Of a stretch of 64,000 bases of DNA, positions 9,702 through 43,377 are shown in pieces (within the stretch, counting starts at the first letter, position 1; each line of letters begins with the position of its first letter). Under the pieces are notes generated by a model. It ran no database searches. It saw only the letters and a program-made list of their open reading frames with translations, and was not told where the DNA came from. The DNA lies in NCBI RefSeq assembly GCF_022662495.1, contig NZ_JAKPBU010000005.1:310001-374000 (forward strand), given 5' to 3'. The position numbers and the translations under genes are program-made. The DNA comes from Lysobacter sp. M2-1 (lineage in GTDB: Bacteria > Pseudomonadota > Gammaproteobacteria > Xanthomonadales > Xanthomonadaceae).

Positions 9702-9704
9702 GAG

Positions 9705-10500: not shown

Positions 10501-10503
10501 GAG

Positions 10504-10570
10504 TTCTAACAACTATTCGACCCCCGAAACGGGGCGTTGCGCGAAGTATGCGGCAGCTGGGGCGGCCCGC
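10504..10570 (-). other. attI recombination site region
   Basis: The core GTTAGAA (minus strand, 10510 to 10504) marks the junction between the integrase side and the first cassette. The 60 bases to the right contain no palindrome of the attC kind, only a small CCCCGAAACGGGG hairpin, as expected for an attI. The exact extent cannot be set without footprinting. Confidence 0.7.
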
Positions 10571-10573
10571 CAA
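10545..10573 (-). promoter_or_regulatory. Candidate cassette promoter (Pc)
   Basis: On the minus strand TTGGCG (10573-10568) and CATACT (10550-10545) are separated by 17 bases, each matching the sigma70 consensus in 4 of 6 positions. It would start transcription just upstream of attI and read into the array, which is where integron Pc promoters lie. Confidence 0.35.
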
Positions 10574-10669
10574 TCAGAAAAATCCCACCCGGATTCAATC
10601 TGTTAGCCGATAGGCCGGATGTAGGCGTTGGGCCATCCTTCCTGCGTTATCAGGCGGGAAGAGAGGCGT

Positions 10670-23903: not shown

Positions 23904-25580
23904 ATGAAGGCACGGCTGCGGCATCTGCCCCGTTTCCCGCTGGACTCGGGGACGCTGCGCTATGCCGTGTACGTGCTGAGCGTGACCGCCCTGCTGGTAT
24001 CGCTGGGCATGCTGTGGTGGCGCGGCCGCGATGGGTGGGCGGTGGTAGCCGTGATCTCCGCGGCGCTGGCGCTGGTGGGGAGCTGGGATCTGCTGCAGCG
24101 CCGGAGCACGCTGCGCCGCAACTATCCGATCCTCGCTCACTTTCGTTACGGCCTGGAATCGATCGGGCCGGAAATCCGCCAGTACTTCATCCAGGCCGAC
24201 ATCGAGAAGGCGCCGTTCTCGCGAGAGCAGCGCGCGCTGGTCTACCAGCGCAGCAAGTCGGTGCAGGACACGGTGCCGTTCGGCAGCGAGCTCAATCCCT
24301 ATGGCGTGGACTACGAATGGATCAACCATTCGATGGCGCCGGTGCCGGGCGATCGCCACGACTTCCGCATCCTGGTGGGCGAGGGCTGCGCGCAACCGTA
24401 CTCGGTCAGCGTGTTCAACATCTCCGCGATGAGCTTCGGTTCGCTTTCGGCCAGCGCGATCCGTGCACTCAATGCCGGCGCCAGGCGTGGCCGCTTCTAC
24501 CACGACACTGGCGAGGGCTCGCTCTCCCCGTATCACCGGGAGCATGGGGGCGACATCGTCTGGGAAATCGGTTCGGGCTACTTCGGCTGTCGCAACGCCG
24601 ACGGCAGTTTCAGCGCGGAGCGCTTCGCTGCGGTGGCGCGCGACCCGCAGGTGAAGATGGTGGAGCTGAAGCTGTCCCAGGGCGCCAAGCCGGGTCATGG
24701 CGGAGTGCTGCCGGCGGCGAAGGTCACGCGTGAGATCGCGGAAACCCGCGGCGTGCCGATCGGGGTGGACTGCGTATCGCCGGCGCGGCATAGCGTGTTC
24801 GACACGCCGGTGGGATTGCTCGAGTTCATCGCGCGCATGCGCGAACTGTCCGGCGGCAAACCCGCGGGTTTCAAGCTGGCCATCGGCCACCCCTGGGAAT
24901 GGTTCGGGATCGCCAAGGCGATGCGCGAGACCGGGCTGCTGCCGGACTTCATCGTGGTCGACGGCGCCGAGGGCGGTACCGGGGCGGCTCCGGCGGAATT
25001 CATCGACCATGTCGGCGTGCCGATGCACGAGGGCCTGCTGCTCGTGCATAACACCCTGGTCGGCCTGGGCCTGCGCGACCGGATCAAGCTCGGCGCGGCC
25101 GGGCAGATCGTCAGCGCGTTCGACATCGCCCGGACCATCGCCCTGGGCGCGGACTGGTGCAACTCGGCGCGTGGCTTCATGTTCTCGCTGGGCTGCATCC
25201 AGTCGCAGGCCTGCCACACCGACAAGTGCCCGACCGGCGTGGCCACGCAGAACCCCGGACGCTGGCGCAAGCTCGATGTGCCCGACAAGGCGACGCGTGT
25301 GTTCCAGTTCCACGAGAACACGCTCAAGGCACTGCGTGACCTGCTGTGCGCAGCGGGGCTGGAGCATCCGCAGCAGCTGGGGCCCGAGCACATCCTGCGG
25401 CGCGTGTCGCCGGTCGAGATCCGCTCGCTCGCGGCGCTCTATACGTATCTGCAGCCCGGTGAACTGCTGGACCGGGTTCCCAGGCATGCCGTGTTCCAGG
25501 AGTTCTGGGCCGATGCGCGCAGCGACAGCTTCGCCGCACCGGAGAAGGTGGGCGCCCTGCGTCTGGCCAAATCCTTGTAG
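23904..25580 (+). CDS. Membrane-anchored FMN-binding glutamate-synthase-like protein
   Basis: 558 residues, ATG at 23904, one base after the tviB stop. Two N-terminal membrane helices (YAVYVLSVTALLVSLGML, WAVVAVISAALALVGSW) precede a domain like the FMN/Fe-S half of glutamate synthase: FNISAMSFGSLSASAIRALN, DTGEGSLSPYH, the phosphate-binding DGAEGGTGAAP, and a cysteine cluster (CIQSQACHTDKCPTGVATQNP, about 431-451) typical of the iron-sulfur cofactor. There is no amidotransferase domain, so it is not a full GOGAT. The reaction is unknown. Confidence 0.88.
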   Translation: MKARLRHLPRFPLDSGTLRYAVYVLSVTALLVSLGMLWWRGRDGWAVVAVISAALALVGSWDLLQRRSTLRRNYPILAHFRYGLESIGPEIRQYFIQADIEKAPFSREQRALVYQRSKSVQDTVPFGSELNPYGVDYEWINHSMAPVPGDRHDFRILVGEGCAQPYSVSVFNISAMSFGSLSASAIRALNAGARRGRFYHDTGEGSLSPYHREHGGDIVWEIGSGYFGCRNADGSFSAERFAAVARDPQVKMVELKLSQGAKPGHGGVLPAAKVTREIAETRGVPIGVDCVSPARHSVFDTPVGLLEFIARMRELSGGKPAGFKLAIGHPWEWFGIAKAMRETGLLPDFIVVDGAEGGTGAAPAEFIDHVGVPMHEGLLLVHNTLVGLGLRDRIKLGAAGQIVSAFDIARTIALGADWCNSARGFMFSLGCIQSQACHTDKCPTGVATQNPGRWRKLDVPDKATRVFQFHENTLKALRDLLCAAGLEHPQQLGPEHILRRVSPVEIRSLAALYTYLQPGELLDRVPRHAVFQEFWADARSDSFAAPEKVGALRLAKSL

Positions 25581-25600
25581 GAGCGCCTTTCAGGCGCAGC
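25577..25600 (+). repeat. REP element, first copy
   Basis: GTAGGAGCGCCTTTCAGGCG, the type of short repeat starting GTAGGAGCG with an internal GCGCC/GGCGC palindrome found dispersed in Xanthomonadaceae. It overlaps the stop codon region of the preceding gene. Confidence 0.8.
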
Positions 25601-25628
25601 TAGCGATCTGCGTCTGGGGCACGTCGTT

Positions 25629-25653
25629 GTAGGAGCGCCGCTTCGGCGCGACC
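25629..25653 (+). repeat. REP element, second copy
   Basis: GTAGGAGCGCCGCTTCGGCG, direct copy of the element at 25577 with a longer palindrome. Confidence 0.8.
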
Positions 25654-25673
25654 GAAGGTGCGGCATCGGTCTC

Positions 25674-25698
25674 GGTCGCGCTTGAGAGGCGTTCCTAC
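25674..25698 (-). repeat. REP element, inverted copy
   Basis: The minus strand reads GTAGGAACGCCTCTCAAGCG, an inverted, slightly diverged copy that can pair with the two upstream ones. Confidence 0.75.
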
Positions 25699-25909
25699 AG
25701 GAGCCATCGCGGATACAGAATGCCGTCGCGCTCCGCGCGGACGCGGCTGTTGCGCGCACGTGTGACGTGCCCAGCGAAAGCCTGGCGGCGTTGCCCACGT
25801 CATTCCATGACCGTCGATCGGCACGGCATGGCGATGGCAGATTCGTGGCAACCCATGCACGCCGATCGTGGTATGGATACTGCCTCCCCCGAGCAGCCGT
25901 GATGTCGCC

Positions 25910-27199
25910 ATGGTCTGGAGGCTCGCCCCCGCTACCCTCATCCTGCTGCTTGCGGCCTGCAGCGCAGGGATCCAGGAGCGCAACAGCGATCGGCAGTCGG
26001 CCGCGCGCGATCGGACTGCGCCAAGCACCTTGTTCGTCTCAGGCAGGGTGGTTCGAGGCAGTACAGCCGACATGGATTCGATTGGAGCGCCGTCCGCCGC
26101 GGCCACGGCGGTCCAGACGATGCGCACCGGCGGACCCCAACAGGCGTTCCGTGTTCCCGATCCGCCCTTCGTCGCGCGCGAAGTGGGCCGATTCACCGAA
26201 CCGTGGGCGATGACATTCCTTCCCGACGGACGCTTGTTGGTGACGGAGAAGACCGGGCATCTGCGGCTTTTCGACGTCGCGGCCCGGGCGACCGGCGAGA
26301 TCCGGGGCGTCCCTGCAGTTGCCTATGGTGGTCAGGGGGGGCTGGGGGACGTGGTGCTGCATCCGCAGTTTGCCAGCAACCACCTGGTCTATCTCAGCTA
26401 CGTGGAGGCCGGGGCGAACGACACCCGTGGCGCCGTCGTGGTGCGTGCGCGCCTGGATCTGGATTCCAGCGGCAATGGCGGCAGCCTTGCGGGGCTGCAA
26501 GTGGTGTGGCGGCAGGCACCCAAGGTGACCGGCTACGGCCATTACAGCCATCGCATCGCATTCGGGCGCGAGGGCAAGTTGTGGATCACCTCCGGCGACC
26601 GCCAGAAGTTCGATCCGGCGCAGGACCTGCAGCAGAACCTGGGCAAGGTGCTGCGGCTCAACGCCGACGGCTCGGTTCCGTCGGACAATCCATTCGCCGC
26701 CCAGGGGGGCATCGCCGCGCAGGTCTGGAGTCTGGGCCACCGCAATCTGCTGGGAATTGCATTCGATGCGGGCGGAACGCTATGGACCCACGAGATGGGA
26801 CCGGCCGGCGGCGACGAGCTCAACCGGATCGAACGCGGCAGCAACTACGGGTGGCCGATCGTTTCCAATGGCGATCACTACGACGGCACCCCGATTCCCG
26901 ATCACTCGACGCGTCCGGAGTTCAACGCGCCCGAAGCATGGTGGACGCCGGTGATCGCGCCCTCGGGCTTCATCATTTACAGCGGCAGCCTCTTTCCCTA
27001 TTTCCGCGGCGAAGGGTTCATCGGTGGCCTGGCCTCGCAGGCGCTGGTGCGCGTTCGATTCGCAAGCGGCGGTGCGCAGGAGATCAGGCGCCACGCGATG
27101 GGCGCGCGCATCCGCGAAGTCGAGCAGGGGCCTGACGGCGCCATCTGGCTGCTCGAGGATGGCGCGAACGCACGCCTGCTCAAGCTCACGCCGCGCTGA
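25910..27199 (+). CDS. Lipoprotein PQQ-dependent aldose sugar dehydrogenase
   Basis: 429 residues from the ATG at 25910. The signal peptide ends in the lipobox LAAC. After a 70-residue linker comes a six-bladed propeller of the soluble glucose dehydrogenase/YliI type: [60 protein letters not shown] (likely substrate/PQQ His), [14 protein letters not shown], and the [14 protein letters not shown] Ca/PQQ site region. These oxidise aldoses such as galactose and glucose to lactones in the periplasm. Located next to dgoDK, which would use galactonate, though it points toward them on the opposite strand. Confidence 0.85.
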
Positions 27200-27256
27200 T
27201 CCCATCCGGCGACTGCAAACGACACGTCAACTGATCGATGGCACCCTGGCTGGGCA

Positions 27257-28210
27257 CTAGGCCTTGACCATCGCCAGCCGATGCAGACCTGCGGCAGCGA
27301 GGTCCTCCGAATGGCGCTGGACCTGGATGCCGAACACTTCCAGCGCCCGCGCATAAGCGACCTGCAGGCGATCGTTGCCGATCAGGTGAACGCGGGAGGG
27401 ATGCGGGTCCTGTCCGCGGAGTTCGTGGCCGATCAGCAGCCCCGACAGATAGGACGGCGACTGGGTGCGCGACAGGCGGCCGAGTAGCGCCATCGTGCGC
27501 ACGCCGAAAAGATGATGCAGCAGCCCGCCGGCATCGCCGCTGCGGCGCAGGCCTTCATCGAAGGCCGGCACATGCAGCGGTGGTTCGTCCGCAGCCATCA
27601 GCCGGGCCAGCACGCTCTGGTTCCGGAACAGCGCGTAAGCCTCGCCCGTCATCGTGGTCTGTACCGATACGATGTTGCTGCCGCGGATGTCGACCCATTT
27701 GCTGTGGGTGCCGGGAAGACACACGGTGTGGTCGCCGTCGCCAAGGCGGTCGAGCAGCCCGATGATCTGCGTTTCCTCGCCGCGCATCACGTCGGCGACT
27801 TCGGACGAGGTTTGGTCGATCATCCCGGGCACGATCAACAGCTCGCGCTCGGCCAGGGCGGGCGTACCGCCCTCCAGGGCCACGATCGCCGCTGCGATCT
27901 CGCGTTCGCCGGCCGGGCATTCCACGTACGGCACTTCCATCCATCCGCCGCGCCCGCCGATCATGCCGCACATCATCACGCGCGTATCGTCCCAGCCATC
28001 GAGCTGGCGGGCGAGGACCTCGGCGAAGCGGCCGTCGCAGGACAGTACGCCCAGGTCGGCGCGACGCTGCTCGAGGATGGTGCCGTCCGCGCCGAGGCGG
28101 TAGGCGCGCAGGTTGCTGCTGCCCCAGTCGACGGCGATCACGAAGCGATCCCCCTCGGTTGGCGCGAGCAACGCGCGCGGCGGATGCGATAGGCCGGTGC
28201 CACTCGCCAC
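27257..28210 (-). CDS. dgoK: 2-dehydro-3-deoxygalactonokinase
   Basis: 317 residues from a GTG at 28210; a shorter start before the VIAVDWGSSN motif is possible because the first 20 residues look disordered. Phosphorylates 2-keto-3-deoxygalactonate with ATP. The ATPase pattern VIAVDWGSSNLRAYRL is at the N-terminus, then MCGMIGGRGGW, VPGMIDQT and CLPGTHSKWV motifs known from DgoK. It lies 27 bases after dgoD on the same strand. Confidence 0.9.
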   Translation of the reverse strand: MASGTGLSHPPRALLAPTEGDRFVIAVDWGSSNLRAYRLGADGTILEQRRADLGVLSCDGRFAEVLARQLDGWDDTRVMMCGMIGGRGGWMEVPYVECPAGEREIAAAIVALEGGTPALAERELLIVPGMIDQTSSEVADVMRGEETQIIGLLDRLGDGDHTVCLPGTHSKWVDIRGSNIVSVQTTMTGEAYALFRNQSVLARLMAADEPPLHVPAFDEGLRRSGDAGGLLHHLFGVRTMALLGRLSRTQSPSYLSGLLIGHELRGQDPHPSRVHLIGNDRLQVAYARALEVFGIQVQRHSEDLAAAGLHRLAMVKA

Positions 28211-28237
28211 TCCGTCGCTGCGCGCATGCTCATCCCG

Positions 28238-29389
28238 TCACCACTCCGCGATGCTGCCGTCGGCATGGCGCCACACCGGGTTGCGCCAGTGCGGCGGGTC
28301 TGCGGCTGCGGCGCGTAGCCGCTGCTCGTCGATCTCCACGCCCAGGCCCGGGCCGGGCAGGATGCCAATGCTTCCGTCGACGCAGGCGAAGTCGTCCTTG
28401 TTGAGCACGTAGTCGAGCAGGTCGGCGCCGTTGTGGTTGTAGTGGATGCCGATGCTTTGTTCCTGCAGCACCGCGTTCCACGCGACGAAGTCGACCTGCA
28501 GGCAGGCTGCCAGCGCCACCGGACCCAGCGGGCAGTGCGGGGCGAGGGCGACATCGTGGGCCTCGGCCATGGCCGCGATCCTCACGCATTCGGTGATCCC
28601 GCCGGCGTGCGACAGGTCCGGCTGCACGATCGCCAGGCCGCCGCGCTCGAACACGCGTTTGAAGTCGAAGCGCGAATACATGCGCTCGCCGGCGGCCAGC
28701 GGGATCGAGGTCGCTGCCGCGAGCTGCGGATAGTATTCGCACTGCTCGGGCAGCACCGGCTCCTCGACGAACAGCGGCCGCAGCGGTTCGAGTTCGCGCA
28801 GCAGCACCTTGGCCATCGGCATGCCGACCCGGCCATGGAAATCGATGCCGAAGTCGATCGAGTGGCCGAACGCGGCGCGGATCTCGGCCACTTTTTCCAC
28901 CGCCGCATCGACCGCACGCGTGCTGTCGAGCGGGCGGAATTCCTCGGTGCCGTTGAACTTGAAGGTGTCGTAACCGAGTTCCTTCAGCGTTTTCACCTGC
29001 TCGATGATGTCCGCGGGCCGGTCGCCACCGACCCAGCGGTAGGTCTTCATGCGATCGCGCACGCGCCCGCCGAGCAACTCGTGCACCGGCACGCCCAGGG
29101 CCTTGCCCTTGATGTCCCACAGCGCCTGATCGATTCCGGCGATGGCGCTCATCAGCACCGGACCACCGCGGTAGAAGCCGCCGCGATACAGGGTCTGCCA
29201 CAGGTCGTTGATGCGAGAGGGATCCTTGCCGATCAGGTATTCGCACAGTTCCTGCACGGCGGCCTCGACGGTCGCGGCACGGCCCTCGATGATCGGCTCG
29301 CCCCAGCCGACCACGCCGTCGTCGGTCTCGATCCTGAGGAACAGCCAGCGTGGCGCTGCGTGAAAGGTTTCTGCGCGGGCGATCTTCAT
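28238..29389 (-). CDS. dgoD: D-galactonate dehydratase
   Basis: 383 residues, ATG at 29389. Enolase-superfamily enzyme converting D-galactonate to 2-keto-3-deoxygalactonate. Extensive agreement with E. coli DgoD is visible, for example [39 protein letters not shown], the metal ligands in [15 protein letters not shown] and [25 protein letters not shown] and the final ...W. The dehydratase capping residues are in [14 protein letters not shown]. It is transcribed divergently from the LysR gene and leads the two-gene dgoDK operon. Confidence 0.93.
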
Positions 29390-29772
29390 CGTGTCACTTC
29401 CATGTCGGCCTGGTCGAAGGTGTCGCCGCGCGCCTGGTGCGGCGCAGCCGGGACCGCCGGGCTGGCCGCGTCCAGGAGATGTAAATACGGCTGCGCGGAC
29501 GCATGGTCATGCAGGCAGCCGCGGCGATCGGTATTGCCTTCCTGCCTGGCCATGCCGGTGTCTCCTGCCCCTGGATCTACGGTTGCCTGTCTGCCGCCGC
29601 CTGTCAGCGGGCCGGGCGCGAACGCATATCGATTCCGGCGATGTCGCCGCAATGGACCCGCCTGTCGGAGCCAGGCATAGCGATCGGGGCATAACGATGC
29701 GCGGTAAAGCTATATTCAACCAATGAAATTTTCGTCATATGATATTCCCCGTGAGAATACTGAGGACGGGGC
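29390..29772. promoter_or_regulatory. Divergent intergenic region between dgoD and the LysR gene
   Basis: 383 bases with no supported gene. The right end holds the motif ACCAATGAAAT (29719-29729), 44 bases before the LysR start, and an AT-rich stretch TCATATGATATTCC just after it, both suited to LysR binding. Promoters for both genes are expected here. Confidence 0.55.
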
Positions 29773-30783
29773 ATGAGTCAGACCGGTACGAACTGGGCCA
29801 ATGCCACGCGGTTGAAAACGCGGCAGTTGTCGCTGTTGCTGGAGCTGGCCGAACACGGTTCGGTGCTACGCGCGGCCCAGGCGGCCAGCATGACCCAGCC
29901 GGCGGCGTCCAAGCTGCTCGCCGAAATGGAGAGCATGCTCGGGGTCAAGTTGTTCGAGCGCCATGCGCGGGGAGTGGAGCCGACCTGGTACGGCCAGGTG
30001 CTGGTGCGGCATGCGCGCACCGCCTTGACCGAGCTCAGCCGGGCGCACGACGAGATCGCCGCGCTGCGCAACGGGCGCATGGGCCAGGCAGCCATCGGCA
30101 CCGTGGTCAACCCGGGTACCAACCTGGTACCGCAGGCGATCGCGGCGGTAAAGCGCGAGTACCCGGACCTGCTGATCCGGGTGGAAATGGACTACAGCCG
30201 CCCGCTGGTCGCGCGCCTGGTCGATGGGCAGTTGGACATGGTGGTCGGCCGCATCCTTGGGCCCGACGGGCTGGGAGATCTGGATTTCGAACCGCTTGCC
30301 GACGAGCCGCACTCGCTGATCGCACGCGCAGGCCACCCGTTGACCCGCCGCCGTCGCCTGGACCATGCCGATCTGCTCGAGTTTGGCTGGATCCTGCCGC
30401 CTGCGGCCAGCCTGCTGCGTTCGCGCATGGACGCGATGTTCCTCGAACACGGCCTGCCATGGCCGCAGAACATCGTCGAGACCTCGGCGTTGCCGGTCAT
30501 CACCAACCTGTTGCGCACCAGCGATCTGCTGACCGCGCTGCCGGTGGATTCGATCGCGCCGTACACCCAGGCGAACATGCTGACCGTGCTGCCGATCGAA
30601 CTGGGCGTGAGCATCGAATCGTTCGGTATCGTCCGCCGCCGCGACCATCTACTTTCCCCGGGGGGGCAACGGGTACTGGAAGCGCTGCGCGTCACCGCGC
30701 GCCGGTTGTACGCCGAGCTGCCACCGCCGCAGGGCACACGGCGTAGTCCGGCCAAGGGGCTGGGCTATCTCGGAGAGGACTGA
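29773..30783 (+). CDS. LysR-family regulator of the dgo region
   Basis: 336 residues, ATG at 29773. N-terminal winged helix-turn-helix (LKTRQLSLLLELAEHGSVLRAAQAASMTQPAASKLLAEMESMLG, about 15-60), then a substrate-binding-like effector domain (GTVVNPGTNLVPQAI, MVVGRILGPDG, SLIARAGHPL). It stands divergent to dgoD, as for a regulator responding to galactonate or a related sugar acid. This subfamily includes the galactose-responsive GbpR, which the context fits. The effector is an inference. Confidence 0.9.
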   Translation: MSQTGTNWANATRLKTRQLSLLLELAEHGSVLRAAQAASMTQPAASKLLAEMESMLGVKLFERHARGVEPTWYGQVLVRHARTALTELSRAHDEIAALRNGRMGQAAIGTVVNPGTNLVPQAIAAVKREYPDLLIRVEMDYSRPLVARLVDGQLDMVVGRILGPDGLGDLDFEPLADEPHSLIARAGHPLTRRRRLDHADLLEFGWILPPAASLLRSRMDAMFLEHGLPWPQNIVETSALPVITNLLRTSDLLTALPVDSIAPYTQANMLTVLPIELGVSIESFGIVRRRDHLLSPGGQRVLEALRVTARRLYAELPPPQGTRRSPAKGLGYLGED

Positions 30784-31393
30784 GGGTCTTGCGTCGACGC
30801 GGCGCGCTCAATCTATTCCATAAGAAGATATCTAGGTTGGAATATTTCATTGGTATGGCATGAGAGTGACGCATATCCTCCGGCTCGAAAGTCGTGCGGA
30901 ACATCGCAATTCCGGAAGATCCGGCACCGGGAATCCGCCCTGAGAGCGGGTATCGGCAAGCCGGCGTGAAGCGGCAATCGGAGCCAATGGGAGGCTCCGG
31001 CCACAACCAGACATCGTTGCGGGTCCTGGGAGGGAACAATCATGTCGACGCGCCAGAGCCGCCGCCGCTCCGTCGGAAAGCTGCGCGACGCCAGCATTTC
31101 CGACCCGTTACAGCGCCTCACCAGTGTGCAGATCGGGAGCATCCGTGAAGTCGACCTCCTCGCGATCCTCGGCCCGGCCCAGGTTCATAGCGAGTTGAAC
31201 GACTCGCGGTCTTCCGCGTTCGCTACCGCGAGCGATTTTGTTAGCGGTAACACCGCGGGTTTGGACCATGCCCCCGACATTGATGGCGCCAGCAGCGCGC
31301 CAGACGGCTCCCTGCCGATCTACTCCAACACCAGTCTCCCCACGCGCCACTAACCATCTCGACACAACGCCAGTTCCTCTGGAGGGAGCAGCC
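30784..31393. promoter_or_regulatory. Leader region of the xyloglucan locus
   Basis: 610 bases between the LysR gene and the receptor gene. An inverted copy of ACCAATGAAAT lies at 30844-30854 and a xyl-box-like palindrome at 31239. At 31026-31063 there is a ribosome-site/start-codon sequence that copies that of the receptor at 31380-31417. The 103-residue frame starting there (31042) is low in structure and contains the operator, so it is not called as a gene. Confidence 0.6.
31239..31252. promoter_or_regulatory. Operator matching the Xanthomonas xyl-box
   Basis: TGTTAGCGGTAACA is a near-palindrome. On the minus strand it reads TGTTACCGCTAACA, which agrees in 12 of 14 positions with the xyl-box TGGTAGCGCTAACA that I recall for the LacI-family repressor XylR of Xanthomonas. 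A further GGTAGCG half-site on the minus strand lies 10-20 bases upstream. It sits 142 bases before the receptor start. Confidence 0.65.
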
Positions 31394-34300
31394 ATGTCAA
31401 TCCGTCAAAGCCACCCCGCAAGTCGCCGGGCGAACAAGGGTTTCAGCCGCCAGGCGAGGCGTTCGGCCATGGCGCTCGCCATTGCCGCCTTCCTCAGCGC
31501 CAACGCGCACGCGCAGGAGGCGGCCCAGGCTCCTGCCGACGCCGAGCAGGACAGCGAGGATGTGAAGGAGTTCGACGCGGTCATCGTGACCGGCATCCGT
31601 GGTTCCATCTACCGGGCGCAGGACATCAAGCGCGACGCCGATACCTTTGTCGATTCGGTCACCGCGGAGGACATCGGCGCGCTGCCCGACCGCAGCGTCA
31701 CCGAAACGCTCTCGCGCATCCCCGGCGTGACCATCGACCGCTTCCTCTCGGCGGGCGATCCGGAACACCCCTCCGCCGAAGGCAGCGGCGTGCAGGTCCG
31801 CGGCATGACCCAGGTGCGTTCCGAACTCAACGGCCGCGACACTTTCTCGGCGAACGGTGGCCGTTCCATCGGCTTCCAGGACGTGCCCTCAGAACTGATG
31901 GCCGGCGTCGACGTGTACAAGAACCAGAAGGCCGAGATGATCGAGGGTGGCCTCGGCGGCACCGTCGACCTGCGCACCTTCAAGCCGTTCGACTTCGACG
32001 GCCAGAGGATCGCTGCCAGCGTCAGCGAGAACTACGGCAACTTCTCCGAACAGTACAAGCCGTCCGCTTCCGCGCTGTACAGCAACCACTGGGAAACCGA
32101 CTTCGGCAAGGTCGGCTTCCTGGTCGATGTCGCGCATTCGGAACTCGCCACCCGCACCGACGGCATGTTCGTGCGGCCGTTCTTCGAGACCGACAACACC
32201 GATGTCGACGGCGACGGCACCAACGAGCGACTCTGGCTGCCGCGCGGCGCCGACTGGCGCACGCTGGATTTCGAACGCGAACGCCAGGGCGTCTACCTCG
32301 CCCTGCAATGGCAACCCAGCGACGACGTCGAGCTACACGCCACTGGCTTCCAGAGCCGGTACGACGAGCTCTGGTTCGAGGACGCCATCTTCGTCGGCAA
32401 CGATCCCACCGCGGTCAGGATCGACACCAGCCAGCCGTTCGAACTGGATGGCGGCGTGTTCCGCTCGGGCCGGCTCGTCCAGGACGGCAATATCCCCATG
32501 GGCACGGACATCCGCGCCTCGAACAGCAACTCCAAGGTCACCGACTTCTCCCTCGGCCTGAAGTGGACGCTCACCGACAGCACCGAACTGACGACCGAAC
32601 TGCAGTACGTCAAGGCGGAGACCCGGAGGCTGGATTCCACGGTCTCGCTCGGCATCAACGTGCCCTATATCGACGTCGACCTCACCGGCGGCACGCCGTC
32701 GGTCGGCATCGACCAAGAGTTCACGGGAAACCCCGCCAACTATTACTGGGGTTTCACCATGGACCATCGCGACGACAACGTCGCCGACCAGCTGGCCTGG
32801 CGCGCCGACCTCAAGCACAGCTTCGACAACGGCTTCTTCCGTGCGATCAAGTTCGGCGTGCGCCTGACCGATCGTTCCGCCACCAGCCGGGATACCGGCT
32901 ACGACTGGCAAGCGGTGTTCCAGCCCTGGATGCAGTGGTGGGCCCTGCCGGGCGACCAGCCGCTGCCGGGACTGGACCTCAACGACGTAGTCAACGGCAG
33001 CCTGACGCACCTCAACACCTTCGACAATTTCTACCGCGGCGATGTCAATGTACCGGGCTCCTTCTTCGCGCCCGTGCTGGACACTGCGCTCGGGTTCCCG
33101 GGCAGCTATCTGGACATCCACGAGGCCGCCACCCCGTACTACAGCTGCTGCTATGGGCAGATCACGCCGCGGAACATCCGCGATCCGCAGTGGACCAACG
33201 TGCAGAACGAGAGCACCACCGCCGCCTACGCGATGCTGGATTTCGCGCTGGACAGCATTCGTTTGGACGGCAATGTCGGCGTGCGCGCGGTGCGCACCGA
33301 GAATGCCGCCAAGGGGTTCCTGGTCTATCCGAGCCAAATCGCTGCGCCGTATCTGGGTGCCGGTGAATCGGAGCCGATCAACGCCAGCAATTCCTATACC
33401 GACGTGCTGCCCAGCCTGAACGTGCGCTGGGAGCCGATCGACAACCTGATCGTGCGTTTCGCCGCATCCAAGGCCATCGCCCGGCCGGCGTTCAGCGACA
33501 TGCAGGCCTACCGAATCCTCAGCGCCAGCGTCAATGACGACAACATGGTCGGTGGGGTGAGGTGCGAGGACATCAGAATCGGGGATCCGGATGATCCCGC
33601 TGACGATGTGACGGTTTTGCCTGCCGGGTGTCTGGACCTGACAGGCGGTTCCACCGACAACCCCTACCTGGAGCCGATGAAGGCCAACCAATTCGATCTG
33701 TCGCTGGAGTGGTATTTCGATCCGGACAAGGGCGGCATGGCCTGGGTCAACTTCTTCCACAAGGACATCAAGGACTACTTCCGCAACCAGGCGCAGCTGG
33801 TGACATATCCGGGCGCCGACGGCAACGACTACGAGTACCTGGTTACGCAGACCATCAACACCGGCACCGCGCGCATCCAGGGTGCGGAGATCGGCTGGAC
33901 CCAGTTCTTCGACTTCCTGCCGGCGCCGTTCGACGGCTTCGGAATCGCGGCGAACTACACCTACATCGACAGCTCGACCGACGTGCCGATCGAAGCGGAT
34001 GCGGACCCGGTCGATACCGATGGCTCGAGGTACGGCGAGATGCCGGCCGACGGCCTGTCCAAGAACTCCTACAACGTGGCCGCGTTCTACGAGAAGGGCC
34101 CCTGGCAGATCCGCCTGGCCTACAACTGGCGCAGCGAGTACCTGCTGGGGATCGGCGCCAACGGCTACAACGGCACCAACGACAACCTCGCTGGCGAAAC
34201 CGTTGCCTGGAAACTGCCGGTGTACAGCGACGAGTACGGACAGCTGGACGGTTCGATCTTCTACAGCATCAACGACAACGTCAAGATCGGCCTGGAGATG

Positions 34301-34420
34301 AACAACCTCAATAACGCCGAGCAGCGCACGATCATGGAGCAGAATGGAGGCGGACGGCGGGTCACTTCCTGGTACGTGAACGACACGCGCTATGCGGCGA
34401 CACTGCGCGTGCAGTTCTGA
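31394..34420 (+). CDS. TonB-dependent receptor for oligosaccharides
   Basis: 1008 residues, ATG at 31394 with GGAGGGAG upstream. Outer-membrane transporter. A signal peptide (ALAIAAFLSANAHAQ) is followed by a TonB box-like FDAVIVTGIR (about 61-70), a plug domain (DIGALPDRSVTETLSRIPGVTI, VQVRGM, GGLGGTVDLRT), and a long beta-barrel ending YAATLRVQF with terminal Phe. The plug signature and length are those of the Xanthomonas/Caulobacter subfamily that imports plant cell-wall oligosaccharides. In this context the cargo should be xyloglucan fragments. It needs TonB and the ExbBD pair encoded at 14.1 kb or elsewhere. Confidence 0.93.
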   Translation: MSIRQSHPASRRANKGFSRQARRSAMALAIAAFLSANAHAQEAAQAPADAEQDSEDVKEFDAVIVTGIRGSIYRAQDIKRDADTFVDSVTAEDIGALPDRSVTETLSRIPGVTIDRFLSAGDPEHPSAEGSGVQVRGMTQVRSELNGRDTFSANGGRSIGFQDVPSELMAGVDVYKNQKAEMIEGGLGGTVDLRTFKPFDFDGQRIAASVSENYGNFSEQYKPSASALYSNHWETDFGKVGFLVDVAHSELATRTDGMFVRPFFETDNTDVDGDGTNERLWLPRGADWRTLDFERERQGVYLALQWQPSDDVELHATGFQSRYDELWFEDAIFVGNDPTAVRIDTSQPFELDGGVFRSGRLVQDGNIPMGTDIRASNSNSKVTDFSLGLKWTLTDSTELTTELQYVKAETRRLDSTVSLGINVPYIDVDLTGGTPSVGIDQEFTGNPANYYWGFTMDHRDDNVADQLAWRADLKHSFDNGFFRAIKFGVRLTDRSATSRDTGYDWQAVFQPWMQWWALPGDQPLPGLDLNDVVNGSLTHLNTFDNFYRGDVNVPGSFFAPVLDTALGFPGSYLDIHEAATPYYSCCYGQITPRNIRDPQWTNVQNESTTAAYAMLDFALDSIRLDGNVGVRAVRTENAAKGFLVYPSQIAAPYLGAGESEPINASNSYTDVLPSLNVRWEPIDNLIVRFAASKAIARPAFSDMQAYRILSASVNDDNMVGGVRCEDIRIGDPDDPADDVTVLPAGCLDLTGGSTDNPYLEPMKANQFDLSLEWYFDPDKGGMAWVNFFHKDIKDYFRNQAQLVTYPGADGNDYEYLVTQTINTGTARIQGAEIGWTQFFDFLPAPFDGFGIAANYTYIDSSTDVPIEADADPVDTDGSRYGEMPADGLSKNSYNVAAFYEKGPWQIRLAYNWRSEYLLGIGANGYNGTNDNLAGETVAWKLPVYSDEYGQLDGSIFYSINDNVKIGLEMNNLNNAEQRTIMEQNGGGRRVTSWYVNDTRYAATLRVQF

Positions 34421-34718: not shown

Positions 34719-37331
34719 ATGAAGCCGACAAATCCCCCGACGTCCGCACTTCCGACACGACCGATCGCACTGTTAGTAACGATCCTGCTCACCGCGGCGC
34801 CGATGCTGGGCGGCTGCGAACGGCAGCCCGCGACTACGCAGAATGAAGCGGCGGCGCCAAAAGCAGCGGTGGCAGGCGTCACCGATCCGGCACTGTGGCC
34901 CAAGGCGGCGAGCCGTGGCTTGAAGAATGCGGAAACCGAAGCGTTCGTCGAGCAGCTGCTGGCGAAGATGAGCCTGGAGGAAAAGGTCGGCCAGATGGTG
35001 CAGGGCGATACGTCCAGCGTGCGGCCGGAGGATCTGAGGAAGTACCCGCTCGGGTCGATCCTGGCTGGCGGCAGCTCGCCGCCGCTGGGAGCGCCCGACC
35101 GTTCGCCGGCAGGGCCGTGGGTGGAAACCGCACGCGCCTACCGCGCCGTCTCGCTCGAACAGCGCGAAGGCCACGTGCCGATCCCGGTGATGTTCGGCAT
35201 CGACGCGGTGCACGGCAACAACAACGTGATCGGCGCGGTGATCTTTCCGCACAACATCGGGCTGGGTGCCGCCAACGATCCCGGCCTGATCCAGCGCATC
35301 GGCGCGGCCACCGCCGCCGAAACCGCAGCCGCCGGATTCGACTGGGCGTTCGGACCCACGCTCGCCGTGCCGCAGAACGATGGCTGGGGCCGTGCCTACG
35401 AAGGCTATTCCGAGGATCCCGACCTGGTCCGTCGCTATGCCGGCCCGATGGTGCGCGGGCTGCAGGGCGAACCCGGCGCATCGCTGCCGCTGCAGCAGGG
35501 CCACGTCGCGTCTTCGCCCAAGCATTTCCTCGGCGATGGCGGCACGAAGGACGGCATGGACCAGGGCGACAACCTGTCCAGCGAGGCCGAACTGATCCGG
35601 ATCCACGCCGCCGGGTATCCGGCCGCGATCGAAGCCGGCGCGATGACCGTGATGGCGTCGTTCTCGAGCTGGCAGGGCGTGAAGATGCACGGCAACAAGA
35701 GCCTGCTGACCGATGTGCTCAAGGGGCGCATGGGCTTCGACGGTTTCGTTGTCGGCGACTGGAACGGGCATGGCCAGATTCCCGGCTGCAGCAACGAGAA
35801 CTGCGCGGCGACATTCAATGCCGGGCTGGACATGGCGATGGCGCCGGACAGCTGGAAGGGCGTGTACGAAAGCCTGCTGGCGCAGGCACGCTCGGGCGAG
35901 GTGCCGATGGCGCGCATCGACGATGCGGTGCGCAGGATCCTGCGGGTCAAGCATCGCCTTGGACTGTTCGATTCCGCGCGCCCGTGGGAAGGCAAGGCCG
36001 GGGTGATCGGTGCGCCGGAGCATCGCGCAGTAGCGCGGGAAGCAGTGCGTAAGTCGCTGGTGTTGCTGAAGAACAACGGCGGCGTGCTGCCGATCAAGCC
36101 ATCGGCGAAGGTGCTGGTGGCCGGCTCCGGTGCCGACGACATCGGCCAGCAGAGCGGTGGCTGGACGCTGTCCTGGCAAGGGACGGGCAACCAGCGCAGC
36201 GATTTCCCCAATGCGCAGACCATCTTCGAGGGCCTGCGCGAAGCGTTGGCCGCCGCCGGCGGACAGGCCGAGCTCGGCATCGACGGGACGTTCAAGCAGC
36301 GCCCCGACGTGGCCATCGTTGTCTATGGCGAAACCCCGTACGCGGAGATGGCCGGCGACCTGCAGACACTCGAATTCCAGCCCGGCGAAAAGCAGGACCT
36401 GGCCTTGCTGAGGAAGCTGAAGGCGCAGGGCATTCCGGTGGTGTCCGTCTTCCTGTCGGGGCGGCCGCTGTGGGTGAATCCCGAACTCAATGCGTCCGAT
36501 GCCTTCGTCGCCGCGTGGCTGCCGGGCACGGAAGGCGGCGGCATCGCCGACGTGCTCGTCGCCGGCGCCGACGGCAAGCCGCGGCACGACTTCCACGGCA
36601 GATTGTCGTTCTCCTGGCCACGCACTGCGGCGCAGCTTGAGTTGAACAAGGGCCAGCCTGACTACGAGCCCCTGTTCGCCCTGGGCCATGGTCTGGATTA
36701 CGGGTCCACCACCACGCTACCGGTTCTGCCCGAAGTATCCGGCGTCAATGCAGCGACCACCAACGCGGGCAACTACTACCGCCGCGGCCGCACACCACCG
36801 CCATGGCGGCTGGCACTGCGCGAGGACGGAAAGGCGACGGTCGTCGAAGGCAACCGCACGGCCTCCGCCAGCGGCGCGCTGTCGCTCGAGGCGGTCGATG
36901 CCAACGGCCTGCAGGAAGGCGGGCGCCGGCTGCGCTGGAACGGCAGCGGCGAGGCCGAAGCGGCGATCATCGGCAGCGCCGATGCCGGGCCGCTGGATCT
37001 GCAGCGCCAGGCCAATGCCGACATGGTGCTGCAGGTCCAATATCGCGTCGATGCGGCGCCCAAGGGTCCGGTCACCATGGCGATGGGCTGCGCTGGTGCG
37101 GACGATGCGCCCTGTCGCGGCACGGTCGACGTCACGGCGCTGCTGAAGGCCGCGCCGGTGGGACAGTGGCGCACCGCGAAGATCAGGCTGACCTGCTTCC
37201 GCAAGGCGGGGACCGACATGGCCCGCGTCGACGAACCCTTCGTGCTGGGCACGGCTGCGGCGCTGGATCTGTCGTTCGCGGAGGTACGCCTGGTCGCGGA
37301 TCCGACCGACGCGGTGTGCCCGGGGCAGTGA
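34719..37331 (+). CDS. Lipoprotein GH3 beta-glucosidase-type enzyme
   Basis: 870 residues from the ATG at 34719. Signal peptide with lipobox LGGC. GH3 N-terminal domain (MSLEEKVGQMVQGD, GIDAVHGNN, SPKHFLGDGGTKDGMDQGD) with the nucleophile Asp in FDGFVVGDWNG (about residue 344), then the second alpha/beta domain (VLLKNNGGVLPI, VVYGETPYAE), and a C-terminal extra domain of about 170 residues of beta type. Family members of this ExoP-like subgroup cleave beta-1,4-glucans. Here it would remove glucose from debranched xyloglucan oligosaccharides in the periplasm. Its stop overlaps the GTG start of the next gene. Confidence 0.88.
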   Translation: MKPTNPPTSALPTRPIALLVTILLTAAPMLGGCERQPATTQNEAAAPKAAVAGVTDPALWPKAASRGLKNAETEAFVEQLLAKMSLEEKVGQMVQGDTSSVRPEDLRKYPLGSILAGGSSPPLGAPDRSPAGPWVETARAYRAVSLEQREGHVPIPVMFGIDAVHGNNNVIGAVIFPHNIGLGAANDPGLIQRIGAATAAETAAAGFDWAFGPTLAVPQNDGWGRAYEGYSEDPDLVRRYAGPMVRGLQGEPGASLPLQQGHVASSPKHFLGDGGTKDGMDQGDNLSSEAELIRIHAAGYPAAIEAGAMTVMASFSSWQGVKMHGNKSLLTDVLKGRMGFDGFVVGDWNGHGQIPGCSNENCAATFNAGLDMAMAPDSWKGVYESLLAQARSGEVPMARIDDAVRRILRVKHRLGLFDSARPWEGKAGVIGAPEHRAVAREAVRKSLVLLKNNGGVLPIKPSAKVLVAGSGADDIGQQSGGWTLSWQGTGNQRSDFPNAQTIFEGLREALAAAGGQAELGIDGTFKQRPDVAIVVYGETPYAEMAGDLQTLEFQPGEKQDLALLRKLKAQGIPVVSVFLSGRPLWVNPELNASDAFVAAWLPGTEGGGIADVLVAGADGKPRHDFHGRLSFSWPRTAAQLELNKGQPDYEPLFALGHGLDYGSTTTLPVLPEVSGVNAATTNAGNYYRRGRTPPPWRLALREDGKATVVEGNRTASASGALSLEAVDANGLQEGGRRLRWNGSGEAEAAIIGSADAGPLDLQRQANADMVLQVQYRVDAAPKGPVTMAMGCAGADDAPCRGTVDVTALLKAAPVGQWRTAKIRLTCFRKAGTDMARVDEPFVLGTAAALDLSFAEVRLVADPTDAVCPGQ

Positions 37332-39553
37332 AGGGATTCCGGGCAACCGCACTTGCCATTCTGATCGCTATTGCAGGCGTCGCGACCCGGCTGCACGCCG
37401 CCGAACAGGCAACGCCGTATACCTGGAACCATGTTCCCATCGGCGGCGGGGGTTTCGTCAGCGGGCTGGTGTTCCATCCGCGCGAGCCGGGCCTGCTTTA
37501 TGCACGCACCGACATCGGCGGCGCCTACCGCTGGGATGCGGCGTCGCGGCGATGGGTCGCGCTGACCGATGGCCTCGGCCTTGAAGACGTCAACCTGATG
37601 GGCATCGACGGCCTCGCCGTCGATCCGTCCGATCCCGAGCGCGTGTACCTTGCCGCCGGCACCTATACCCACGAACGCGCCGGCAATGCCGCGATCCTGC
37701 GTTCCTCCGACCGCGGCCGCAGCTTCGAGCGCACCAATCTGCCGTTCAAGCTCGGCGGCAACGAAATGGGCCGGGGCAACGGCGAACGGCTCGCGGTCGA
37801 TCCCAAGGATGGCCGGGTGCTGTTGCTGGGTTCGCGCACCCACGGGCTGTGGCGCAGCGAAGATCGCGGCGTGCGTTGGCAGCGGGTGGATGGCTTTCCG
37901 GCGATCGCGACCTCGCCGTCGGCGAGTGCTTCGAACAACCGTCGCACCCAGGCCATCGGCATCGTCTTCGTCGTGTTCGATCCGCAAAGCGCGGCATCGG
38001 AACGCGTTGAAGCCGGCACTCCGAGCCAGCGCATCTACGCCGGCGTATCCACGCGCGAGATCAGTCTGTACGTCTCCGAGGATGCCGGCACGACCTGGTC
38101 GCCGGTGGCCGGCCAGCCGACCGGTTTGCGCCCGAACCACATGGTGCGCTCCAGCGACGGCAGCTACTACCTCAGCTACGGCGACGAGCCCGGCCCGGAC
38201 CGGATGCAGGACGGTGCGGTGTGGAAATACGAGCCCGCGCAGCAACGCTGGACCGAGATCACACCGGCGCCGCAGACGATCGACAGCGAGGGCGACGGCT
38301 TCGGCTGGGGCGCGGTCGCGGTGGATCCGCGCAACCCGCAGGCGCTGATCGCCAGCACATTCACCCGCTATGGCCCGCGCGACGAAATCTTCCGCAGCAT
38401 CGACGGCGGCAGGAGCTGGAAACCGCTGTTTGAACATTCCGATTTCGATCATGGCGCCTCGCCGTGGACGGCGCAGGCGACGCCGCACTGGATGGCCGAT
38501 GTCGAGATCGATCCGTTCGACAGCGATCGCGCGCTGTTCGTCACCGGCTACGGGGTCTGGGCATCGCGTAACCTCAGCGCATTCGAGCGTGGCGCTCGCG
38601 TGCAGTGGCGCTTCGAGAACGAAGGCCTGGAAGAAACCGTACCGCTGGCGTTGCTCAGCCCACCGCAGGGCGCGCCGCTGATCAGCGGCCTGGGCGATAT
38701 CGACGGCTTCGTGCACGACAGGCTAGACCGGACCACTGTGCAGTTCGCCAGGCCGCCGCGCTACAGCAACACCGAGAGCATGGCCAACGCCGGTCAGGCA
38801 CCGGAACTGATCGTGCGCAGCGGCCATTTTCACGACGATCCGGGCAACGTGGTGCATGCGGCGTATTCGCGCGACGGCGGCCGCAGCTGGCGTGAGCTGG
38901 CGGGCGAACCGCCGGAAGGCGAGGGCGCCGGACAGGTCGCCATCACCGCCGATGGCAAACGGGTGCTTTGGCAGCCGCGCAGAGCCGGACACTGGCTGAG
39001 CGACGATTTCGGCGCGCATTGGCGCCGTGTCCTTGGCCTGCCACCGACTGCCGTGGTCGAAGCCGATCGGGTCGACCCGGAGCGTTTGTACGGCTTCGAT
39101 CCAGCCGATGGCAGGCTCTACGTCAGCCGCAACGGCGGCTTGGAATTCGAATCGGCCGAACGCCCCGTCGGCGCGATCGGCGAGCGAGTCCGCGTACAGC
39201 TGCGTGCCGCACCCGGCCACAGCGGCCTGGTGTACATCGCTGCTTCATCGCGCGGACTGCTGCGGTTGGGCGCGAAAGGGCTGGAACGGCTGCCGGGCGT
39301 GGAGAACGCGCTGGCACTGGGCCTGGGCAAGCCGGAACAAGAAGACGGCACGCCGACGCTGTTCGTCTACGGCCAGCTCGACGGCAAGGTCGGGCTGTAC
39401 CGCTCCGGCGACGAGGGCCGCCACTGGACCCGCATCGACGACGATGCGCATCGCTACGGCGAGGTCCGCCTCGTCGTCGGCGATCCGCGTGTGTACGGTC
39501 GTGTGTACCTGGGAACGCATGGACGGGGGATCGTGTATGGCGATCCGCGTTGA
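37328..39553 (+). CDS. GH74 endo-xyloglucanase
   Basis: 741 residues from a GTG at 37328 (GTGA overlap). Signal peptide (ALAILIAIAGVATRLHA) then the paired seven-bladed propellers of GH74. The catalytic aspartates are visible: RTDIGGAYRWD (about D61) and GDIDGFVHD (about D456). Many Asp-box-like turns (SSDRGRSFERT, SEDAGTTW, SIDGGRSWKPL, SRDGGRSWREL) mark the blades. It cuts the beta-1,4-glucan backbone of xyloglucan, making this the initiating enzyme of the locus. It has no carbohydrate-binding module. Confidence 0.88.
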   Translation: MKGFRATALAILIAIAGVATRLHAAEQATPYTWNHVPIGGGGFVSGLVFHPREPGLLYARTDIGGAYRWDAASRRWVALTDGLGLEDVNLMGIDGLAVDPSDPERVYLAAGTYTHERAGNAAILRSSDRGRSFERTNLPFKLGGNEMGRGNGERLAVDPKDGRVLLLGSRTHGLWRSEDRGVRWQRVDGFPAIATSPSASASNNRRTQAIGIVFVVFDPQSAASERVEAGTPSQRIYAGVSTREISLYVSEDAGTTWSPVAGQPTGLRPNHMVRSSDGSYYLSYGDEPGPDRMQDGAVWKYEPAQQRWTEITPAPQTIDSEGDGFGWGAVAVDPRNPQALIASTFTRYGPRDEIFRSIDGGRSWKPLFEHSDFDHGASPWTAQATPHWMADVEIDPFDSDRALFVTGYGVWASRNLSAFERGARVQWRFENEGLEETVPLALLSPPQGAPLISGLGDIDGFVHDRLDRTTVQFARPPRYSNTESMANAGQAPELIVRSGHFHDDPGNVVHAAYSRDGGRSWRELAGEPPEGEGAGQVAITADGKRVLWQPRRAGHWLSDDFGAHWRRVLGLPPTAVVEADRVDPERLYGFDPADGRLYVSRNGGLEFESAERPVGAIGERVRVQLRAAPGHSGLVYIAASSRGLLRLGAKGLERLPGVENALALGLGKPEQEDGTPTLFVYGQLDGKVGLYRSGDEGRHWTRIDDDAHRYGEVRLVVGDPRVYGRVYLGTHGRGIVYGDPR

Positions 39554-41426
39554 CATGCGAATCGGCGCGTCACGCTGGCTGATGGCCGCGTTGCTGGCGG
39601 GCCTGCCGTTGCTGGCGGACGCGCAGGGCTACGCGCCACGTCCGCAGGCCAGTGCGAATGTAGCTCCGGCTTTGGATGACGCCGAAGCCGGATCCGTGCC
39701 TCTGGCTAACCTGCCGGCGCGCCAGCGGCGCAGCCTCAACGGCACCTGGCAGGCGCTGGTCGACCCGTACGCCGATGGCATCGGCCAGTGGAAGGCGGTG
39801 TGGAAGGACCGTACCGCCAGCGGCAACACCGAGTTCATCGAGTACGGCTTCGACGATGCCAACACGCTGCAGGTGCCGGGCGATTTCAACACCCAACGGC
39901 CCGAGCTGCTGTATCTGGAAGGTTCGGTCTGGTATCGCAAGACGTTCGACTACGAGCTCGCCGACGCGCGTCGCGCCGGGCGGCGCGTGTTCGTGCATTT
40001 CGGTGGCGCGAACTACCGCACCGATGTGTTCCTCAACGGAGAGAAACTCGGCAGCCACGAAGGCGGCTTCACGCCGTTCCAGTTCGAACTGACGGGGCGG
40101 GTGAAGCAGGGCGAGAACCGCCTGTTGGTGCACGTCAACAACGCACGCCGCAAGGACGGCATCCCGGCACTGGGCTTCGACTGGTTCAACTACGGCGGCC
40201 TGACCCGCGACGTGGATCTGGTGGAAACGCCGGCCACCTACATCCAGGACTACTTCATCCAGCTCGCGCCGGGCTCGCAGCGGCGCGTCGAGGGTTGGGT
40301 GAAACTGGCCGGCAGCGCGCCGCAACAATTCGTGCGCGTGCGCATTCCCGAGCTGGATGTCGACGAGCAGGTGCAGGCCGGTGCCGACGGTTACGCACCG
40401 GTGCGTTTCGAGGCGCCGTTCGCGCTGTGGTCGCCGGCGCAGCCCAGGCTCTACAGGGTGCAGGTCTCCACCCCGGACGATGCGCTGGAGGAGGACATCG
40501 GCTTCCGCAGCCTCGCCGTACGTGGCGACGAGATTCTGCTCAACGGCAAACCCCTGTTCCTGCGCGGGGTCAATGTCCACGAAGAAATCGACGGTCGCCG
40601 CGCGCATTCGCCGGAAGATGCGCGCCGCCTGCTGCAGCACGCCCGCGACCTTGGCGCCAACTTCGTGCGCCTGGCGCATTACCCGCACACCGAGCACCTG
40701 GTGCGCATGGCCGACCGCATGGGCCTGCTGCTGTGGCAGGAGATCCCGGTCTACCAGGGCATCGACTTCGCCGATGCCGGCATGCAGGCCCGGCTCGATG
40801 CGATGCTGAGCGAAATGATCGCCCGCGATCGCAACCGCGCGGGTGTCGCGTTCTGGGGCGTCGCCAACGAAACCAGCCCCGGTCCGGAGCGCAATGCCGC
40901 GCTGGCGGCACTGGCGCGACGCTCGCGCGAACTCGATCCGACGCGGCTGGTCGCGGCGGCGCTCTACGCGCCCGGAATCGATGGCGGCAAGGTAACCGTG
41001 AGCGACCCGCTGGTCGCCGCGCTGGACGTGGTCGGCATCAATGAATATTTCGGCTGGTACGTGCCGTGGCCGGCCGAGCCCGAACAGGTGACGTGGACGC
41101 CGTTCGGCAAGCCGTTGATCGTCAGCGAATTCGGCGCCGAGTCGCGCCATGGCCGCCACGGCGCCGACGACATCGCCAGCGCCTGGAACGAGGAGTTCCA
41201 GGCCGAGTTCTATCGCAAGCAGCTGCGCATGCTGGCGCGGATCCCGTTCCTGCGCGGCACCGCGCCCTGGGTGATGATGGATTTCCGCTCGCCGGTGCGC
41301 ATGCATCCGTTCCAGGCCGGCTACAACCGCAAGGGGCTGCTGTCCGAACGCGGCGAGCGCAAGCTGGCCTGGTCGGTGATACGGGACCACTACATCCGTG
41401 ACGACCACAGGGAGCTCGAACCTTGA
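39537..41426 (+). CDS. GH2 beta-galactosidase/glucuronidase-type enzyme
   Basis: 629 residues from the ATG at 39537, which has GGGGG seven bases upstream; ATG 39555 is an alternative without a ribosome site. The gene overlaps the GH74 gene by 17 bases. Signal peptide, then sugar-binding domain (LEGSVWYRKTFDYEL, HFGGANYRTDVFLNGEKLGSHEGGFTPF), an Ig-like domain and the TIM barrel with the acid/base Glu in GVANETSPG (about E445) and the nucleophile in VSEFGAES (about E531). GH2 enzymes may act on galactosides, glucuronides or mannosides. In xyloglucan loci of Bacteroides a GH2 removes the beta-galactosyl side chain, so that role is inferred. Confidence 0.87.
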   Translation: MAIRVDMRIGASRWLMAALLAGLPLLADAQGYAPRPQASANVAPALDDAEAGSVPLANLPARQRRSLNGTWQALVDPYADGIGQWKAVWKDRTASGNTEFIEYGFDDANTLQVPGDFNTQRPELLYLEGSVWYRKTFDYELADARRAGRRVFVHFGGANYRTDVFLNGEKLGSHEGGFTPFQFELTGRVKQGENRLLVHVNNARRKDGIPALGFDWFNYGGLTRDVDLVETPATYIQDYFIQLAPGSQRRVEGWVKLAGSAPQQFVRVRIPELDVDEQVQAGADGYAPVRFEAPFALWSPAQPRLYRVQVSTPDDALEEDIGFRSLAVRGDEILLNGKPLFLRGVNVHEEIDGRRAHSPEDARRLLQHARDLGANFVRLAHYPHTEHLVRMADRMGLLLWQEIPVYQGIDFADAGMQARLDAMLSEMIARDRNRAGVAFWGVANETSPGPERNAALAALARRSRELDPTRLVAAALYAPGIDGGKVTVSDPLVAALDVVGINEYFGWYVPWPAEPEQVTWTPFGKPLIVSEFGAESRHGRHGADDIASAWNEEFQAEFYRKQLRMLARIPFLRGTAPWVMMDFRSPVRMHPFQAGYNRKGLLSERGERKLAWSVIRDHYIRDDHRELEP

Positions 41427-43366: not shown

Positions 43367-43377
43367 CCGGGAATTGC

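Follow-up and report, generated by a model that had tools for sequence, protein, structure and literature searches.

Galactonate genes beside a xyloglucan locus

We analysed a stretch of 64,000 nucleotides from the genome of Lysobacter sp. M2-1 (hereafter the window; part of contig C6 in a 3.88 Mb assembly of 12 contigs, 99.98% complete), in which two genes of galactonate catabolism, dgoD and dgoK, adjoin a xyloglucan locus. We consider it probable, at roughly 75%, that the window holds the central part of a De Ley-Doudoroff galactose route, with the genes of the route divided between two loci. The D-galactonate dehydratase gene dgoD (28238–29389, minus strand) clearly exceeds the cut-off of its family model (NF010624, 650 bits, cut-off 311), and the best solved relative of its product is a 'putative D-galactonate dehydratase' (PDB 3rr1, E 1e-190). 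On the same strand and 27 bp away lies dgoK, encoding 2-keto-3-deoxygalactonokinase (27257–28210, start codon uncertain; PF05035 DGOK, 306 bits, cut-off 25; PDB 3t69), which is the single DGOK match in the genome. Convergent with dgoK, across a gap of 57 bp, we find the gene of a soluble aldose dehydrogenase of the pyrroloquinoline quinone (PQQ) type (25910–27199, plus strand; GSDH/Asd/YliI family, PF07995 glucose/sorbosone dehydrogenase, 420 bits, cut-off 25), whose product has a lipoprotein-like N-terminus (...LLAAC..., by eye). The original prediction for this region, made from the sequence alone, had named these three genes beside the xyloglucan locus, and all of them are found in place with clear family scores.

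A LysR-type regulator gene (29773–30783, plus strand; PF03466, PF00126) is divergent from dgoD and lies between the dgo pair and the TonB-dependent receptor gene of the xyloglucan locus (31394–34420, plus strand, start assumed; TIGR01782, 674 bits, cut-off 310). By analogy of position, its product would be the counterpart of GamR (XAC1767 of Xanthomonas citri). The receptor gene is followed by genes for a glycoside hydrolase family 3 (GH3) glycosidase (34719–37331, plus strand; PF00933, 249 bits), a GH74-like protein recognised by BNR/sortilin-type repeats only, a GH2-type enzyme and possible beta-galactosidase (39552–41426, plus strand, start assumed; PF02836 and PF02837 on reading frame 39027–41423), a SASA-type esterase, a GH35-type, likely galactose-releasing beta-galactosidase (43363–45084, plus strand; NF051902, 498.6 bits, just below the cut-off of 500; PF18120), GH31, GH95, a xylose isomerase and an MFS sugar porter. 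This order suggests a Xanthomonas-type xyloglucan locus, a label taken from the locus as a whole.

Lactonase, aldolase and symporter genes on contig C1

Neither a lactonase nor a 2-keto-3-deoxy-6-phosphogalactonate (KDPGal) aldolase is encoded in the window as far as the families tested show, as had been predicted: the genome contains two matches each to PF01081 and PF08450, on contigs C10 and C1, and none on C6. A genome search for dgoA and lactonase genes, proposed with the original prediction, located both in one operon on C1 (C1:1660584–1663754) with the order dgoA, vSGLT-type Na+/galactose symporter, SMP-30-type lactonase. The stop codon of dgoA (C1:1660584–1661237; NF006600, 259.7 bits, cut-off 207) shares one base with the start of the sodium:solute symporter gene, and the lactonase gene (C1:1662849–1663754; SMP-30/gluconolactonase family, PF08450, 270 bits) begins 4 bp past the end of the symporter gene at 1662844 (closest solved structure 2xq2, E 8.5e-155). 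The PF01081 aldolase family has two members in this genome, DgoA on C1 and a separate Eda on C10. The former fails the eda model (115.4 bits, cut-off 156); the latter scores 222.6 on it and adjoins an edd gene (594.7 bits, below the cut-off of 708, in a frame read from near the locus edge). Because the lactonase and a dedicated KDPGal aldolase are encoded on C1, the Entner-Doudoroff aldolase, earlier suggested as a stand-in, is not needed, and we rejected it as a substitute.

The open frames of dgoD, dgoK, dgoA and the lactonase gene are intact. Within 20 kb around the C1 operon there is no match to GntR, dgoK or dgoD, and the genome has no match to the galactokinase sugar-binding domain (PF10509), a model matched by 10 of 14 control genomes. 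By its family, the lactonase of the operon is a putative galactonolactonase; no signal peptide is seen by eye, which points to galactose oxidation in the cytoplasm after uptake. A second SMP-30 gene (C1:1571386; L008 1447–2547), which by eye converges on a GH3-like frame, has a lipoprotein-like start and encodes a possible exported lactonase.

Across the first 307 aligned positions, the symporter is 58% identical to vSGLT (2xq2). The available portion of PMC13099297, a paper of 2026, describes six residues that hydrogen-bond galactose in vSGLT 3DH4; five of them are kept here (Q69, E88, N260, K294 and Q428) and S91 is replaced by Ala. Position 294 is Ala in chain 2xq2. In three relatives (L073, L080 and L081), a vSGLT-type symporter gene ends the xyloglucan locus, and in many more such a gene stands beside GH3. 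No gene of this type follows the MFS gene in the xyloglucan locus of the window.

Relatives, promoter site and origin of the two loci

Including the present genome, 30 of 119 family genomes contain a DGOK match. Of the 32 other DGOK places, 28 were read, in most cases together with ~10 kb of flanking DNA to either side (less for L045); G103 (two places), G076:C97 and a fragment in G029 were left out, and four distant DgoK loci in named genomes (37–40% identity) were not used further. In 19 of the 28 loci, a LysR gene with 68–86% identity to that of the window separates the dgo cluster from a TonB receptor gene and is divergent from an operon with the order [SDR]-dgoA-dgoD-lactonase-dgoK (SDR, short-chain dehydrogenase/reductase), which supports a galactose branch tied to the xyloglucan locus. 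All 19 of these gamR-linked loci contain dgoA, the lactonase gene and dgoK, and 18 contain dgoD; the exception is L034 (G027), where dgoA and the lactonase gene have no dgoD match between them, so that loss of a cluster step may not be confined to the present genome. The SDR gene heads the operon in seven loci (with a partial match in L033) and is missing from twelve. The window cluster, comprising dgoD and dgoK only, is unlike all 19.

No convincing trace of an SDR or dgoA remnant was obtained in the window cluster by tblastn. The frame that holds the lactonase of the gamR-linked locus L029 matches the tail of dgoD and the bases after it (tblastn, E 2.5e-10), and blastn yields a 52-column alignment (79%, E 2.6e-5) to L029 8481–8532, the start of that lactonase gene, with 23 bases in dgoD and 26 past its stop (28212–28237, minus strand). 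This weak trace may reflect loss of a lactonase gene at this place.

A 42-base conserved site is located 5' of gamR in all 19 other gamR-linked loci. We trained a site matrix on 14 non-redundant sites, with the window left out. The site in the gamR-dgoD divergent promoter region (29720–29761, plus strand; score 57.0) and an inverted copy 5' of the TonB receptor gene (30812–30853, minus strand; score 14.6) were the two best of the 1,047,516 positions (both strands) in the DNA of the Lysobacter genome that was scanned; 100 shuffles of the 64 kb window gave a maximum of 11.3 (95%, 7.7). In 13 of the 19 relatives, the core [AC]AATGAA is part of the highest-scoring inverted site past gamR (two rows one base out of register). 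Judging by these sites, dgoDK and the TonB receptor gene probably share an operator through which the LysR protein in the GamR position controls both; as every training site derives from a single orthologous promoter, their conservation alone is no proof of GamR binding. A weaker match before the second symporter gene in L091 (7.5) falls inside the shuffled range. In the same locus, a near-identical site resembling the start of the gamR site stands before the second symporter gene and before another gene (L091 9117–9158 and 16951–16992) and is perhaps the operator of another regulator.

The C1 operon resembles a different type of cluster. Its lactonase shares 37–43% identity with the gamR-linked lactonases, compared with 75% for G387, 64% for G346 and 62% for G045, and among 395 family genomes, with at most five candidates scored per genome, a lactonase at at least 60% identity was found in these three and this genome only. 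In G387, dgoD is divergent from dgoK-dgoA-symporter-lactonase, followed by a GntR/FCD regulator gene, and the dgoA, symporter and lactonase products are 71, 86 and 75% identical to those of C1. The regulator also occurs in G045 (PF00392, PF07729) and, by eye, in G346; both genomes combine symporter and lactonase with dgoD, dgoK, dgoA and another SDR. In phylogenetic trees, DgoD and DgoK of the window pair with the gamR-linked type from L029 (97/99 and 100/99), and the C1 lactonase and symporter pair with G387 (94/97 and, in a quick tree, SH-aLRT 100). C1 DgoA lies outside the gamR-linked clade (100/98) and is nearest to G387 by path, without a supported pair. Judged by its sequences, the C1 operon does not look like a displaced remainder of the gamR-linked cluster and would belong to the lineage of the rare GntR-associated cluster. 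The pathway is thus a mosaic, which may stem from two full clusters in one ancestor or from acquisition of a partial one. We see about even odds that one pathway runs on the remains of two independent operons that complement each other, both cluster SDRs having been lost and replaced by another enzyme, in which case GamR would directly control only half of it.

Proposed route, alternatives and known systems

In the split De Ley-Doudoroff route, galactose would be cut from xyloglucan fragments in the periplasm by the GH35 enzyme, and perhaps by the GH2 enzyme, and imported by the vSGLT-type symporter from C1. A dehydrogenase, for which no gene is assigned, would oxidise it in the cytoplasm, and the SMP-30-type lactonase from C1 would open the resulting lactone. 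Galactonate would be dehydrated by DgoD and the product, 2-keto-3-deoxygalactonate (KDGal), phosphorylated by DgoK, both from the window, before cleavage to pyruvate and glyceraldehyde 3-phosphate by DgoA from C1. The LysR protein in the GamR position would control dgoDK and the TonB receptor gene through the shared operator. Gene families, their places, the nearest lineages and the conserved site are observed; substrates, direction of flux and regulation are predictions. The result is an ordinary known pathway in a new arrangement, with one step lacking an assigned enzyme.

For this first step, we read all 26 SDR places in the genome, found with the L029 SDR as query. None is an orthologue of either cluster SDR (best 43% identity to the L029 SDR and 37% to the L020 SDR, compared with 57–79% between cluster SDRs of different genomes), and given the query used, an L020-type orthologue could in principle be missed. 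The cluster SDR itself would be the galactose dehydrogenase by its place in the operon; its NCBIfam name is only 'SDR family oxidoreductase' (NF005469, 379.8 over 306). The SDR with 37% identity (C8:46581), a weak candidate, passes the broad subfamily model NF005559 'glucose 1-dehydrogenase' (238.6 over 215). Three of the eight Gfo/Idh/MocA places were scanned, and no galactose dehydrogenase name appeared among these three: one passes NF008607 'oxidoreductase' and the other two stay under every cut-off. The SDR with 43% identity (C1:1157417) sits in an L-fucose oxidative cluster. This cluster (L052, C1:1147001–1167000, at 6053–11244) comprises genes for a fuconolactonase (NF052480, 445 over 400), an FAA-family hydrolase, two SDRs, an enolase-family protein and a rhaM-type mutarotase, and it would take up fucose that GH95 may release from xyloglucan.

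Several observations weigh against the split route or its mosaic origin. No gene among the SDR, Gfo/Idh/MocA and GSDH candidates could be assigned to the galactose dehydrogenase step. A scan of the 983 bases 5' of C1 dgoA gave no conserved site (best −18.3), so that the C1 operon would be under other control than dgoDK. Many loci that lack dgo genes contain a symporter at ~70% identity, often next to GH3, and the C1 symporter may therefore carry glucose in addition to galactose or in its place. Nor do the two cluster types separate cleanly in every tree: DgoA of G387 stands apart from that of G045 and G346, and the DgoK tree, with a long-branch warning, puts G045 and G346 among the gamR-linked rows.

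The original prediction had cast the adjoining PQQ-type dehydrogenase as the first enzyme. In this case, it would oxidise galactose in the periplasm, the lactone would be opened by a lactonase exported there, and galactonate would be imported for DgoD. The dehydrogenase gene is adjacent and its product lipoprotein-like, the second SMP-30 protein could serve as the exported lactonase, no cluster-type SDR was found, and soluble PQQ aldose dehydrogenases oxidise aldoses broadly. In addition, G387 encodes a 41%-identical GSDH relative ~7 kb from its lactonase gene, and the accessible part of PMC6965072 reports that sorbosone dehydrogenase, galactonate dehydratase and galactose dehydrogenase are all more abundant in X. 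axonopodis pv. glycines with extra LcrX. However, PqqE (TIGR02109) stays below the cut-off in this genome (55.6 vs 381 bits), which is passed by 6 of 60 family genomes, this genome counted, as a positive control and by none of 14 controls. PQQ would thus have to come from outside, by uptake as in E. coli. Moreover, none of the 28 other DGOK loci has a GSDH match at E 1e-8, the dehydrogenase gene is convergent with dgoK, and the presence of symporter and lactonase, the latter without signal peptide, in the dgoA operon fits galactose import. The protein does not reach subfamily TIGR03606 (103.8 vs 434.55), its best PDB relatives are 7cdy and 2g8s, and one of the genome's four GSDH places (PF07995), among them a weak one with 46 bits, is 63% identical to it. 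The three stronger GSDH genes thus stay weak candidates for the galactose dehydrogenase. We regard periplasmic oxidation as unlikely, and the dehydrogenase is probably not part of the galactose route. What stands of the earlier proposal is a De Ley-Doudoroff branch tied to the xyloglucan locus, as borne out by dgoD, dgoK, the missing galactokinase match and the 19 of 28 loci; the periplasmic dehydrogenase is a weak candidate for its first enzyme.

Two further readings were weighed. The two loci could be unrelated leftovers of a pathway that is dead in this organism, given that SDR, dgoA and lactonase genes are gone from the gamR-linked cluster and that the C1 operon has no GntR, dgoK or dgoD match around it. 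We hold this to be very unlikely, since the frames are intact, the two loci jointly hold each of the four later steps, and no galactokinase was found. Alternatively, the dgo genes could serve imported galactonate, with symporter and lactonase doing other jobs; DgoD, DgoK and DgoA suffice for galactonate, and no gene is assigned to the galactose dehydrogenase. Yet both of these genes stand in the dgoA operon and in dgo clusters of other genomes, and none of the proteins scanned from the window and C1 was identified as a galactonate transporter, a set that was not extended to a genome-wide search. This reading, too, we hold to be very unlikely.

If the split De Ley-Doudoroff route holds, the C1 operon fills a pathway gap that single-locus annotation would leave, and it provides an example of a catabolic route surviving as a mosaic of two operons. 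It also points to a galactose dehydrogenase to be found: 12 of the 19 gamR-linked relatives likewise have no L029-like SDR in their dgo operon, and another galactose dehydrogenase may await discovery in this group.

Some features of the window lie apart from this question. In the gap 5' of the dehydrogenase gene (25570–25700), a short repeat like GTAGGAGCGCC...GGCGCGACC can be made out by eye in several copies, and a gap of ~130 bp (50483–50614) separates the GH95 and xylose isomerase genes. In X. citri, a D-xylulokinase gene adjoins the xyloglucan cluster, according to the part of PMC8245568 available; the scanned proteins of the window include no recognised counterpart, though no search was aimed at D-xylulokinase.

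Split De Ley-Doudoroff genes are known from Pseudoalteromonas carrageenovora 9T, in which, according to the accessible sections of PMC6262041, a polysaccharide locus includes galactonate dehydratase and lactonase, with galactose dehydrogenase and KDGal kinase encoded elsewhere. The split thus differs from the present one, and strain 9T can draw on a complete galactokinase route as well, while the present genome gave no galactokinase match. Among the literature matches listed, judged mostly from the listings, none describes the present two-locus split. The symporter is akin to vSGLT of Vibrio parahaemolyticus (2xq2, 3dh4) in identity and galactose contacts, but its gene lies between dgoA and the lactonase gene, and S91 is Ala. 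The PQQ-type dehydrogenase shares its family with 2g8s, which we take to be the soluble PQQ aldose dehydrogenase YliI/Asd of E. coli, and both E. coli and this genome fall below the PqqE cut-off; the lipoprotein-like start sets the protein of the window apart.

For the locus as a whole, the counterpart is that of X. citri, in which GamR (XAC1767) stands beside the xyloglucan utilization locus (XyGUL) XAC1768–1774 (PMC8245568, in the part available). Both share a LysR gene beside TonB receptor genes, GH74, esterase, GH35, GH31, GH95, xylose isomerase and MFS genes. The window differs in having one TonB receptor gene instead of two, inserted GH3 and GH2 genes, and a dgo cluster cut to dgoD and dgoK. 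The main text of PMC8245568 contains no word beginning with galacton or dgo, so that the dgo neighbourhood of XAC1767 is not seen there. The same source, as far as available, reports that galactose raises hrpX expression in X. citri, and a review states that GamR binds the hrpG/hrpX region (PMC7831014, in the passage available); whatever consumes galactose in X. citri would therefore bear on that signal.

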